DNA from: a virus
Reading direction: 5' to 3' (one strand)
IMG/VR virus record: IMGVR_UViG_3300020411_000587
Coordinates: 1-22,489 of that record
DNA length: 22,489 bases
Below are positions 2,457 through 8,406 of the stretch, in pieces (position 1 is the first letter of the stretch; each line of letters begins with the position of its first letter). The translations under genes were made by a program, and so were the position numbers. The notes beneath the pieces were generated by a model, which did no database searches, was not told where the DNA came from, and worked only from the letters and a program-made list of their open reading frames with translations.

Positions 2457-3362
2457 ATGCCAAATAAGCACCTTGAGCATCCAGAAGATCTAATACTTCT
2501 AGGAACAGATCCTAATGAAGTGTTGGATCATCTTTTTATGGTGCATAAACTTACTACTAAGTGGGATGGTGCTCCTTCAATTGTGTTTGGTAATAATAAT
2601 GGTAAGTTCTTTGTTGGTACGAAGAGTGTCTTCAACAAGAAGAAGATCAAGATTAATTATAGCGTTGCAGATATTGTAAAAAACCATGAAGGTGCAGTAG
2701 CACAGATTCTTACCGCCTGTTTCTATTCTTTACCTCGTATAGAAGGTATCGTACAAGCAGATTTTATCGGGTTTGGAGGTTCTGATAGCTACCGCCCCAA
2801 CACGATTACTTATAAGTTTCCCAGTATAATTTCACAAGACGTAATAATTGCTCCACACACAGCATATAATGAAGTAAGTCCTAATGCTGTACCTATCTTT
2901 GGTGTTAAGTTAAAGTCAACTGATACATGCTACTGTATAGATACAGAAACATGCTCATTGGATGTACCTTTTAAAGCAAAAAGTTTAATTCAAGCAGCAA
3001 GATTCTTAGTTCCATTTTGTAAATTTCCTACCACAGATTTAAGATCATATTATAATAAGTTTATCCGTGAAGGTAAAACTCCTACAGCGTCAGAACTATA
3101 CTATAGTTTGGATGATAAATATAAGTGTGAGGTAAACATAAATACCTTTAGATTATACAATCTCATACTGAATATTAAAGATGTTCTTCTCTCTGCTGTC
3201 AAGGTAGATGAGACTGTTGAATACTTACTAGGTGATCAACCTACTACACCAGAAGGTTATGTATTAATTGGACCTAAGTATTCAGTGAAACTCGTTAACC
3301 GTTTGGAATTTAGTCAAGCAAACTTTAACTTACGTAAAAATTGGAAGAATGAAAAAGTTTAG
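2457..3362 (+). CDS. Ligase-type covalent nucleotidyltransferase-like protein
   Basis: The protein has 301 residues. It shows the ordered motifs of the DNA/RNA ligase and mRNA-capping superfamily: K35-W-D-G38 (motif I, K35 the expected AMP-bearing lysine) followed by APSIVFG, a beta segment GKFFVG, VQADFIGFG at 99-107 (motif III-like, D102), PEGYVLIG at 265-272 (motif IV, E266-G267) and YSVKLVNR at 275-282 (motif V, K278). Only about 20 residues follow motif V, so no OB-fold domain is present and this would be a minimal nucleotidyltransferase. Known members seal nicks or cap RNA; the substrate here is unknown. The 3' end overlaps the next gene by 14 bases. It could also be an inactive relative, since motif spacing is unusual. 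Confidence 0.75.
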   Translation: MPNKHLEHPEDLILLGTDPNEVLDHLFMVHKLTTKWDGAPSIVFGNNNGKFFVGTKSVFNKKKIKINYSVADIVKNHEGAVAQILTACFYSLPRIEGIVQADFIGFGGSDSYRPNTITYKFPSIISQDVIIAPHTAYNEVSPNAVPIFGVKLKSTDTCYCIDTETCSLDVPFKAKSLIQAARFLVPFCKFPTTDLRSYYNKFIREGKTPTASELYYSLDDKYKCEVNINTFRLYNLILNIKDVLLSAVKVDETVEYLLGDQPTTPEGYVLIGPKYSVKLVNRLEFSQANFNLRKNWKNEKV

Positions 3363-4569
3363 CGACTTCCTTACCGAAGCAGCAAAATCAAAAGCCTCAG
3401 ATCAGGCAGCAAAACTAGGGTTAAAACATGTAGGGTATGGCTATTACGGTCTCCCTAATGGAACTGTGACCCATCGTTCTGTTAATGGACAGTTAATAGA
3501 ACTAACACCAGAACAACAAGCAGCAAAGAATGGAGTACCACCAGAACAACAGGGACAACAAGGAACTGGAGAGGAAGAAGGTGGCAACGCGGGCACTAAA
3601 GGTGACATATCTATTACATTTGGAAGATTTAATCCACCAACTATCGGACATGAGAAACTCATTGAACGACTCGCTTCATCTAGTAAGAGTGGGGAGTACA
3701 AGATATATCCCAGTAGGACTCAAGATCCAAAGAAAAACCCAATAGATCCTGAGACCAAGGTACATTACATGCGTCAGATGTTTCCTGACCATGCTCATGC
3801 AGTTATTAATAACGAAGAATTTAAAACAATATTTGATGTTCTTAAATCTCTATACAATGAAGGGTATACTGTTGTCAATCTAGTACTAGGTGGTGACAGA
3901 GTTGCAGAGTTTGAGAACTTAGCACAGAAATATAATGGTAAACTCTACGAGTTTGAAGAGATCAATGTTCAATCAGCAGGTGATAGAGACCCTGATTCAG
4001 ATAGTGTAGAGGGTATGTCAGCATCTAAAATGCGTAAGGCAGTAGCAGATGGTGATTATAATATGTTTAAAACAGGCATGCCAAAGAGCCTGAGTGATCA
4101 GGAATGTAAGGAACTGTATAAAGAGATCAAGAACTCTATGCAGTTACAAGAGGAAGATGATTTCTCAGAAACATCCTATACTCTATATGAGATAGCACCT
4201 AAGTTAGATTCAGAAGGACTTAGAGAAGCATACTATGATCATAAGATCTTTAATGAAGGAACTTATATTGAGAATTCAAACACTGGTGTTCTTGGAAAGA
4301 TTGTTAAACGTGGTGTGAACTATGTTATATACATTGATGAGCACGATCATGTATACCGTGGTTGGTTGAAAGACTTACATGAAGTACTTCCTTCAGGAAA
4401 AAACTTCACCATGTTCCAAAAAACTGATCCTAAAAAAGGGTATGCAGACCTTAAGGCATACAACTTTAGTCCATTAGGATTAGAAGGTACACCAAAACTC
4501 GCTAAGGCAGTTAAGAATCTGACACCTGGTGAGAATATAAATAAAAAGGATAAGGTAAAAGTAAAATGA
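3349..4569 (+). CDS. Cytidylyltransferase/NMN-adenylyltransferase-fold protein with capsid-targeting-like N-terminus
   Basis: The protein has 406 residues in three parts. Residues 1-52 begin MKKFSDFLTEAA and contain a small YYGLPNGTVTHRSVNGQL module. A Gln/Gly/Glu-rich linker spans 57-85. Residues 87-250 hold a nucleotidyltransferase domain with FGRFNPPTIGH (91-101; H101 of the HxGH-type site), GGDR (181-184) and MSASKMR (223-229), the equivalent of the ISSTxxR signature of NMNAT/cytidylyltransferases. A C-terminal part of about 150 residues is unassigned. This fold transfers NMP onto a phosphorylated small molecule such as NMN or a phospho-alcohol. The opening residues resemble the T4 internal-protein capsid-targeting peptide, with a gp21-type cleavage motif L-T-E/A. 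It overlaps the ligase-like gene upstream and shares ATGA with the next gene. Confidence 0.8.
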   Translation: MKKFSDFLTEAAKSKASDQAAKLGLKHVGYGYYGLPNGTVTHRSVNGQLIELTPEQQAAKNGVPPEQQGQQGTGEEEGGNAGTKGDISITFGRFNPPTIGHEKLIERLASSSKSGEYKIYPSRTQDPKKNPIDPETKVHYMRQMFPDHAHAVINNEEFKTIFDVLKSLYNEGYTVVNLVLGGDRVAEFENLAQKYNGKLYEFEEINVQSAGDRDPDSDSVEGMSASKMRKAVADGDYNMFKTGMPKSLSDQECKELYKEIKNSMQLQEEDDFSETSYTLYEIAPKLDSEGLREAYYDHKIFNEGTYIENSNTGVLGKIVKRGVNYVIYIDEHDHVYRGWLKDLHEVLPSGKNFTMFQKTDPKKGYADLKAYNFSPLGLEGTPKLAKAVKNLTPGENINKKDKVKVK

Positions 4570-7183: not shown

Positions 7184-7546
7184 ATGAAATTTGGTGAACT
7201 CAATAGTGACAACTATGTCATGTTCGCCATCAAAAATTATGAGAATCCTCAGAGTGTGACTCGTGAGGATTTTGACGAAGACATGAAAAGATTCAAGTAC
7301 CTTAAGAGATTACTCAAAAGGTACTTGCGTGGGGGACCACTAAGAACCCACTTAATCATAAATCATTTGATTGTCCTTTATAATGTTTTTGATGACGCTG
7401 CAACACCATTACTCTTATTCAAATTTGAAAAGGAATACTGGTCACTGCTAAGAGCATTCTTAGAATACTTAAACAGATTTCCAGAACATTACATGGACTG
7501 TTTAGAAGCCGATCCAGATGTGGTTAAGGAACTTAACGGATTATGA
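7184..7546 (+). CDS. Conserved-looking phage protein of unknown function
   Basis: 120 residues, rich in aromatic residues, Arg and Leu (MFAIKNYENPQSVTREDFDE, KRFKYLKRLLKRYLRGG, HLIVLYNVFDDAA, EYWSLLRAFLEYLNRFPEHY). I recall similar proteins in several T4-like and marine phages without assigned function. It is predicted mostly helical and soluble. It sits seven bases after the virion candidate and overlaps the next gene by four bases (ATGA), so the three probably share one late transcript. A virion-assembly role is likely from context only. Confidence 0.75.
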   Translation: MKFGELNSDNYVMFAIKNYENPQSVTREDFDEDMKRFKYLKRLLKRYLRGGPLRTHLIINHLIVLYNVFDDAATPLLLFKFEKEYWSLLRAFLEYLNRFPEHYMDCLEADPDVVKELNGL

Positions 7547-8406
7547 TCAACGAAGAACCTACAATGAGTGTTGGAGCAGGTGGTTTCACAGGAGCCGCAG
7601 CTGCGACAGGTCCTAATGCAGGTTTTGATCCTCTATTAGACTTTCGTAAGAGAGCTAATAAGAAGATTAAAGATCATCCTTATGTGTCAGAGTACCGTAA
7701 GAGTCGTAAGAAAGTCAGAAAGGAAGGTCATACCCCCAATGACGGTAAGGTAAAGAACAAAGTTAACCCTGCAATGCCTACAAGGTTACTTCAATATAAG
7801 GTGAAGATACCTGGTGTGGGAGAGACTATTGTATATGCCAACAACCCTTCTGAACTTAGTGTTAAGATGAGACTTCTTATCAATCCTCGTTATAGAGGTG
7901 ACATTGATATAGAAAGAGTCTTTCCTGGTCAAGCAGCAAAATTTTATATGGACAAGCGAATGAAAGCTATGAAAAACATCCCCGAAGAGTTTGTCTTAGA
8001 GAATCAGGACAAGCAAATGAAACAACAGTTTGCTCAACAGAAGGTAGCAAACCTTAAGAAGCAAGCACAACTTAAGAAGCAAGAGATAGCAAAGACATTA
8101 CAGAAGAAGACTGCTAACCTTAAGAGGAAAGCAAGAGTAGGTACAGATGTATCAACTCAGAATGAAGAGTTTAGTAAGAGTGGAAACTTAGCAAAGATCA
8201 AACACTGTGCAGAGAATGGTTGTGCAAGTGCTATTAAGTTTCATTCTGGAGAAGAGTTTGATGTTACCCCTGATGTTGCCAAGAAAGTTATGAGTGCATA
8301 TACTTCACTTGCTGCTCGTAAGAATCAAGCAAAGTTTAGTAATGCATGTAATGAGAATCCTGAAATGTTTAATCGCGTACTGGCATTTAGTAATCCTGTG
8401 GAGTGA
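7543..8406 (+). CDS. Phage protein with basic coiled-coil centre, probable structural or assembly role
   Basis: 287 residues. The N-terminus is Gly/Ala-rich (VGAGGFTGAAAATG), followed by a basic section and a compact beta region (LLQYKVKIPGVGETIVYANN, ELSVKMRLLINPRYRGDIDI). Residues 150-205 form a long Lys/Gln/Leu helix likely to be coiled coil (QKVANLKKQAQLKKQE). The C-terminal 80 residues include two cysteines (KHCAENGCASA) and a soluble domain. Start at 7543 shares ATGA with the previous stop; ATG 7564 is an alternative. I do not know its function. Position between a virion candidate and a membrane coiled-coil protein is suggestive of late function only. Confidence 0.75.
   Translation: MINEEPTMSVGAGGFTGAAAATGPNAGFDPLLDFRKRANKKIKDHPYVSEYRKSRKKVRKEGHTPNDGKVKNKVNPAMPTRLLQYKVKIPGVGETIVYANNPSELSVKMRLLINPRYRGDIDIERVFPGQAAKFYMDKRMKAMKNIPEEFVLENQDKQMKQQFAQQKVANLKKQAQLKKQEIAKTLQKKTANLKRKARVGTDVSTQNEEFSKSGNLAKIKHCAENGCASAIKFHSGEEFDVTPDVAKKVMSAYTSLAARKNQAKFSNACNENPEMFNRVLAFSNPVE

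Follow-up and report, generated by a model that had tools for sequence, protein, structure and literature searches.

A capsid-targeting-like N-terminal peptide on a virion adenylyltransferase-like protein of T4-like cyanophages

The analysed DNA, called the window here, is the whole 22,489-nt stretch of the 22-kb virus record IMGVR_UViG_3300020411_000587, whose sequence matches are T4-like cyanophages. The gene under study is an open reading frame (ORF) in it that encodes a 406-aa adenylyltransferase-like protein beginning MKKFSDFLTEAAKSK (Table 1). The best reading of this enzyme is cargo of the virion, comparable to the T4 internal proteins but in a new setting, and one of several cyanophage enzymes tagged with a capsid-targeting sequence (CTS). 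What the present analysis established is the N-terminal peptide with its T4 CTS register, how conserved and specific it is, and the fold that is predicted; the presence of orthologues in virions was shown by others. The initial annotation of the window had proposed a nucleotidyltransferase packaged into the head and injected; its observation was confirmed and its interpretation partly supported.

The window protein starts with MKKFSDFLTE/A, and the internal proteins IPII and IPIII start, in the T4 record, with MKTYQEFIAE/A, which is the same register, with the L-T-E before A that had been pointed out initially. The two openings share M1, K2, F7, E10 and A11; both have an aromatic residue at position 4, and I or L stands at position 8. 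According to a review of Black's work, ten residues of IPIII are enough for packaging, mutations in the T4 CTS map targeting mainly to residues 4 and 7 and processing to residues 8 and 10, and gp21 cleaves after L/I-x-E (PMC9026906). A T4-type CTS-bearing internal head protein was taken here to have a propeptide of 10–19 residues with targeting residues 4 and 7. F4 and F7 of the window protein stand in register with Y4 and F7 of IPII and IPIII and are kept in relatives, and a gp21-type site is present at the sequence level, L8-T9-E10/A11, with A following as in IPII and IPIII. A gp21-type protease gene was found in relatives, whose gp23 has L/M-x-E sites followed by A or T.

The N-terminus was left out of the selection of relatives because loci found with MKKFS-containing patterns biased the counts. 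Relatives were instead chosen by a catalytic-domain alignment searched against viral contigs, and the first ATG was taken blind to the motif. The CTS rule was matched at the first ATG by 73 of the 77 distinct relatives, and two of the four that did not match (L201 and L211) apparently have wrong start calls, with a CTS start found further in. The stretch of 20–100 residues behind the opening, by contrast, differs greatly between the relatives. Among 76 tabulated N-termini, K2 occurs in 73, F7 in 74, E10 in 74, L or I at position 8 in 73 and A or S at position 11 in 72, and positions 3, 5, 6 and 9 are variable. The pattern extends to distant members, which open with MRFRQFIIEA (S-SZBM1), MITFHVFITEA (P-RSM6), MKGFSNFLIEA (MC09), MKLFNQFFKEA (S-CRM01) and MKNFSSFLTEA (S-CREM2). 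In these five the gap between the peptide and the catalytic domain is about 20–35 residues; in S-SM2 and S-CAM7 it is about 100–140 residues and the first 11 residues still fit the pattern. The sequence after the peptide is unrelated or very short in distant members and the opening is kept, so by sequence comparison the opening is conserved as a separable unit. Members without the peptide are HTVC008M, S-CAM3, MED4-213, a jumbo coliphage and S-PM2.

The initial annotation had named a pattern common on non-virion proteins as evidence that would speak against packaging, and the pattern proved not to be common on them. When five complete or near-complete genomes were scanned blind for ORFs of 80 aa or more, the CTS regular expression matched 1–3 out of 151–285 first-ATG ORFs per genome. 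In T4, two of 229 ORFs were matched, exactly IPII and IPIII. S-SM1, Syn9 and a 150-kb near-relative contig, which carries an 85% identical orthologue, gave one match each, always the transferase gene, and S-SZBM1 gave three, one of which is the transferase gene. Set against these frequencies, the 73 of 77 relatives show that the opening is not due to chance.

Virion studies of orthologues were available in part and are cited to that extent. Mass spectrometry detected the orthologue in the virions of S-SM1 (T4-GC190; Sullivan 2010), S-SZBM1 (_140; 2 peptides, 13.5%), S-SCSM1 (ORF91) and S-CREM2 (ORF154; 3 peptides). All four carry the opening: MKKFSAFLNEA in S-SM1, MKSFLQFLKEA in S-SCSM1, where ORF91 starts MKSFLQFLKEAA, and in S-SZBM1 and S-CREM2 the versions given above. 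The enzyme was not detected in the S-PM2 virion by Clokie 2008, as cited by Sullivan 2010, and the S-PM2 protein lacks the CTS, its catalytic domain following a DUF6267 domain within one protein. The initial annotation knew of no earlier description of this combination. As far as the available parts of the papers go, virion presence and the injection/NAD (nicotinamide adenine dinucleotide) idea are already in print (PMC3037559, PMC9602691, PMC10665884), with injection and an NAD role proposed in PMC9602691, and what appears new is the CTS link alone. A literature search joining capsid targeting with cyanophages yielded no report of the CTS; its one result was a review on T4 with a cyanophage paper in the reference list.

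The opening also occurs on other virion enzymes, as a check suggested in the initial annotation revealed in S-CREM2 (219 coding sequences, 52 virion proteins by mass spectrometry). Here A, G or S after E was not required. The opening was found at the exact start of gp6, gp14, gp136 and gp154, all four of them virion proteins (Fisher p = 0.003), and within the first 30 residues of eight proteins, of which seven belong to the virion (p = 0.0002). Gp122, counted among these seven, is a baseplate protein and may have matched by chance. Apart from the transferase, the virion proteins marked by the opening include an S-adenosylmethionine (SAM) lyase, a kinase, an unknown protein and a putative nuclease in which the opening is displaced. 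Gp6 matches the Pfam family of SAM lyases (E 2.3e-19); the kinase-like match of gp14 (E 1.1e-5) stays below the gathering score. Cleavage of gp14 and gp6 at the exact site is less certain because the residue after the predicted cut is E or F. A hidden Markov model (HMM) of module 2, the small beta domain behind the peptide of the window protein, found one copy in gp12, the putative nuclease (E 2.5e-12), and two in the kinase-like gp14 (E 2.5e-6 and 2.8e-10). Gp12 (L322, 7704–10313) is labelled Cas9/Csn1 in its record, has no Pfam match and is assigned to phrog_3561, and the Cas9 label looks doubtful. As a separate observation, it has a CTS-like site together with module 2, and an HNH-like stretch (DTITPDHVIG...) was noticed by eye.

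The catalytic domain matches PF01467 (CTP_transf_like) with E 8.9e-6, above the gathering score. In the AlphaFold2 model (38 sequences), module 2, the catalytic domain and the C-terminal beta domain are confident and the N-terminal helix is of low confidence. Foldseek matched the catalytic domain to NadD and PPAT with TM scores of 0.6–0.7 by target and E about 2e-5, and apart from a few poor retroviral matches the top 50 PDB matches are NadD, PPAT or related adenylyltransferases; sequence searches of the PDB found nothing useful. The nucleotidyltransferase fold and the T/H-x-G-H and ISSTxxR-type motifs expected of a nicotinamide mononucleotide (NMN) or nicotinic acid mononucleotide (NaMN) adenylyltransferase are both present; GRFNPPTIGH and MSASKMR, the motifs named initially, lie at residues 92–101 and 223–229. 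By this predicted structure the domain is a NadD/CoaD-like adenylyltransferase. Our best guess for the acceptor is (Na)MN, because this pathway fits time zero of infection and phages rebuild NAD against NAD-depleting defences (PMC12774641).

Most records label the enzyme a cytidylyltransferase, the name of the Pfam family and the GenBank labels agree with this, and a cytidylyltransferase of CDP-alcohol or lipid metabolism would be the corresponding reading. However, no CCT/GCT is among the top 50 Foldseek matches listed, and the weak NCBIfam matches are to NadR, NadD and FAD synthetase. The second motif is MSASKMR, whereas the signature of CCT/GCT is RTxGISTT. This reading is therefore very improbable. 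Of the chemistry offered in the initial annotation, an NMNAT/cytidylyltransferase-type domain in NAD or CDP-alcohol metabolism, the structural comparison retained the NadD/PPAT-like side; nothing supports the CDP-alcohol side, as the fold is one of adenylyl transfer.

In the explanation that we prefer, and which as a whole we consider probable, residues 1–10 would be a propeptide for capsid targeting, comparable to that of IPII and IPIII, and would put the enzyme into the prohead core. A gp21-type protease would cut after E10 and leave a mature protein starting AAKSK, and the enzyme would be trapped with the genome and then probably ejected with it. The catalytic domain would most plausibly make NAD or nicotinic acid adenine dinucleotide from (Na)MN, ahead of any phage gene expression, for example keeping NAD up against NAD-depleting defences of the host. 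Head packaging, as proposed initially, is well supported by the CTS register, the conservation of the opening as a unit, its specificity and the virion mass spectrometry of orthologues, and for CTS-directed packaging together with protease trimming the probability is high.

Several points weigh against this explanation. L/I-x-E is a short motif, and targeting by the peptide, cleavage, ejection, substrate and role are what we infer from the data. The relatives share ancestry and their counts are thus not independent events, though the lineages are far apart. Curated NMNAT cut-offs were not reached (TIGR01526, 19.4 bits with a cut-off of 341; TIGR00482, 19.4 with a cut-off of 112), and because these scores are so far below the cut-offs the domain is filed only as NadD/CoaD-like. 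According to the parts of the virion studies available, peptide counts were low (2–3), the S-SCSM1 and S-CREM2 authors caution that abundant cytosolic proteins may persist through caesium chloride, and the enzyme goes unmentioned in the text on the S-CREM1 virion, a shallow set of 14 proteins.

The low counts and the authors' caveat would suit an enzyme that works in the cytosol during infection, co-purifies with virions and keeps its N-terminus for another reason, for instance oligomerisation, membrane contact or translation start, as would the overlap of the first five codons in the window with the stop of the upstream gene. Yet no other cytosolic enzyme is among the S-SZBM1 virion proteins listed in the available part of the report, which argues against simple contamination, and the opening agrees with the T4 internal proteins wherever mutation has defined a position and also occurs on further virion enzymes. 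The overlap was also considered by itself as the cause of N-terminal conservation and rejected: residues 6–11 lie beyond it, and relatives in which the upstream gene apparently stops before the ATG (TAAATG contexts) keep MKKFS. We regard co-purification as distinctly unlikely.

Packaging by the CTS could also serve the head itself, the enzyme activity being a side function or a relic. An influence on head assembly is known for T4 IPIII (PMC9026906), and genes nearby encode virion proteins in the reports as available (SSCSM1_89-93; S-SZBM1_136 and _139). However, the active-site motifs are invariant in 38 diverse members, and in the S-SZBM1 virion the enzyme is of low abundance: its exponentially modified protein abundance index is 0.26, with the portal at 2.83 and the capsid protein at 27.6. 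Such a role in the head itself is unlikely.

Table 1. Features of the transferase gene and its upstream neighbour in the window.
Feature	Position	Strand	Remarks
DUF6267 partner gene, 301 aa	2457..3362	+	PF19782 E 2.8e-83; overlaps transferase ATG by 14 nt; without CTS
ORF of virion adenylyltransferase-like protein	3349..4569	+	ATG start, 406 aa; T4-GC190 / phrog_395; usual annotation 'cytitidyltransferase'; orthologue SSM1_190 = T4-GC190
CTS-like propeptide, residues 1-10 MKKFSDFLTE	3349..3378	+	predicted cut E10/A11 (3378/3379); register with T4 IPII/IPIII, T4 mutational map, conservation
Module 2, small beta domain, residues 15-61 (GLKHVGYGYYGLPNGTVTHRSVNGQL...)	3391..3531	+	AlphaFold2 pLDDT (predicted local distance difference test) about 86-93 at 21-60; HMM matches in S-CREM2 gp12, gp14
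Low-complexity linker, residues 62-84	3532..3600	+	pLDDT <50 at 64-80; length differs between relatives
Nucleotidyltransferase catalytic domain (HIGH-type, T-x-G-H), residues 85-263	3601..4137	+	PF01467 at 89-229; Foldseek NadD/PPAT
GRFNPPTIGH nucleotide-binding motif, residues 92-101	3622..3651	+	core invariant in alignments
MSASKMR (ISSTxxR-type) motif, residues 223-229	4015..4035	+	S224, A225, S226, R229 invariant (38 sequences)
C-terminal small beta domain, residues 300-346	4246..4386	+	strands 306-345 with high pLDDT

The PHROGs assignment of the window protein is phrog_395 'cytidyltransferase'. Its gene is flanked by gp41/MazG-type and primase/nrdA-type genes, with the DUF6267 gene directly upstream, and the gene order matches S-SSM4 and S-SM1. 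The architecture varies in two further records: in MED4-213 (L154, 4067–5374) the equivalent of the C-terminal beta domain sits at the start of the next gene, and in S-SKS1 (L159) leader and catalytic domain are split over two ORFs, a frameshift or a sequencing error in the record.

The DUF6267 protein contains KxDG (K35-D37-G38; KWDG), EGxV (EGYV) and K-x-V (VKLV) motifs, which change little or not at all across 22 sequences and are suggestive of polynucleotide ligases and capping enzymes. A fold search placed RNA and DNA ligases on top with E 0.04 or worse, so the ligase identity is kept as a suggestion based on motifs. Since phrog_455 spans both genes, a single split protein was considered and rejected: the fusion of DUF6267 to the transferase domain exists in S-PM2, but most relatives have two genes. 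In S-SZBM1 the gene at the corresponding position is _141, whose product does not appear among the virion proteins listed in the available part of that report.

Other CTS-like starts were noticed. When loosened and extended to all start codons, the CTS rule also picks gp24 and gp2 of T4 and a few chance ORFs; in T4, CTS-like starts are present in gene 2 (NC_000866, 76061–76885; MAIFQIINES) and in a 76-aa ORF of the uvsW region (114210–114440; MLLEFKQFLYEAS). Two adjacent small genes of S-SZBM1 (OL473597, 122311–122628 and 122628–123125, minus strand) open with MKSFKSFLSES and MKTFKQYITEA; they adjoin the virion protein _190, and neither is on the reported virion list as available. In the window, a basic protein at 7543–8406 (pI 9.9, phrog_696 'major head protein') begins with MINEEPTMSVGAGGFTGAAAATGPNAGFDPLLDFR, a start that looks like the cleavage site and mature N-arm of gp23 from cyanophages; in the near relative G004, for example, gp23 has MLME/APTNAAGTGGFGADATATGPVAGFDPVLISL. 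Gp160 of S-CREM2, a virion protein by mass spectrometry, has a similar start.

Mass spectrometry papers repeatedly find the enzyme in cyanophage virions, with cargo or contamination undecided, and a peptide that matches the mapped T4 CTS and is absent in S-PM2 turns this question into a testable mechanism. The peptide also offers a way to find further injected enzymes by sequence in viruses that rank among the most abundant of the ocean; the SAM lyase, the kinase and the putative nuclease to which it points in S-CREM2 have already been reported from the particle. More tentatively, and short of what we would call probable, one modular leader of T4-like cyanophages (the CTS, often with a beta domain) may load several enzymes into the head: the adenylyltransferase, serving NAD metabolism, together with a SAM lyase, a protein kinase and a nuclease. 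Each of them would be injected at time zero, to counter host restriction and NAD-depleting defences and to take over metabolism. If this were true, the leader would make injected effectors recognisable from sequence alone.

Among known systems, T4 IPI, IPII and IPIII share with the window protein an N-terminal peptide of ten residues whose functional positions coincide and the L/I-x-E site before A, and relatives of the window protein are virion-associated. Unlike the T4 proteins, which are small, basic and without an enzyme domain, the window protein would carry as cargo a nucleotidyltransferase of about 400 residues with an isoelectric point (pI) of 6.0, its cleavage and injection being presumed. 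T4 Alt, the virion ADP-ribosyltransferase, resembles the model proposed for the window protein as a head-packaged, ejected enzyme that acts on the host at once; it differs in its chemistry and in being processed at both ends (PMC9026906). Bacterial NadD and CoaD (PPAT) have the adenylyltransferase fold and the T/H-x-G-H and ISSTxxR-type motifs seen in the window protein, at 10–21% identity, and the window protein has the N-terminal leader and the C-terminal beta domain in addition. The phage NAD+ reconstitution systems NARP1 and NARP2 restore NAD with nucleotidyltransferase-type enzymes that are not known as virion cargo. The closest counterparts are the virion NMNAT-like proteins of S-SCSM1, S-SZBM1, S-CREM2 and S-SM1 (T4-GC190 / phrog_395), which belong to the same family as the window protein; to what the available parts of those virion papers note, the present analysis adds the CTS, the shared module 2 and the link to the S-PM2 non-detection.
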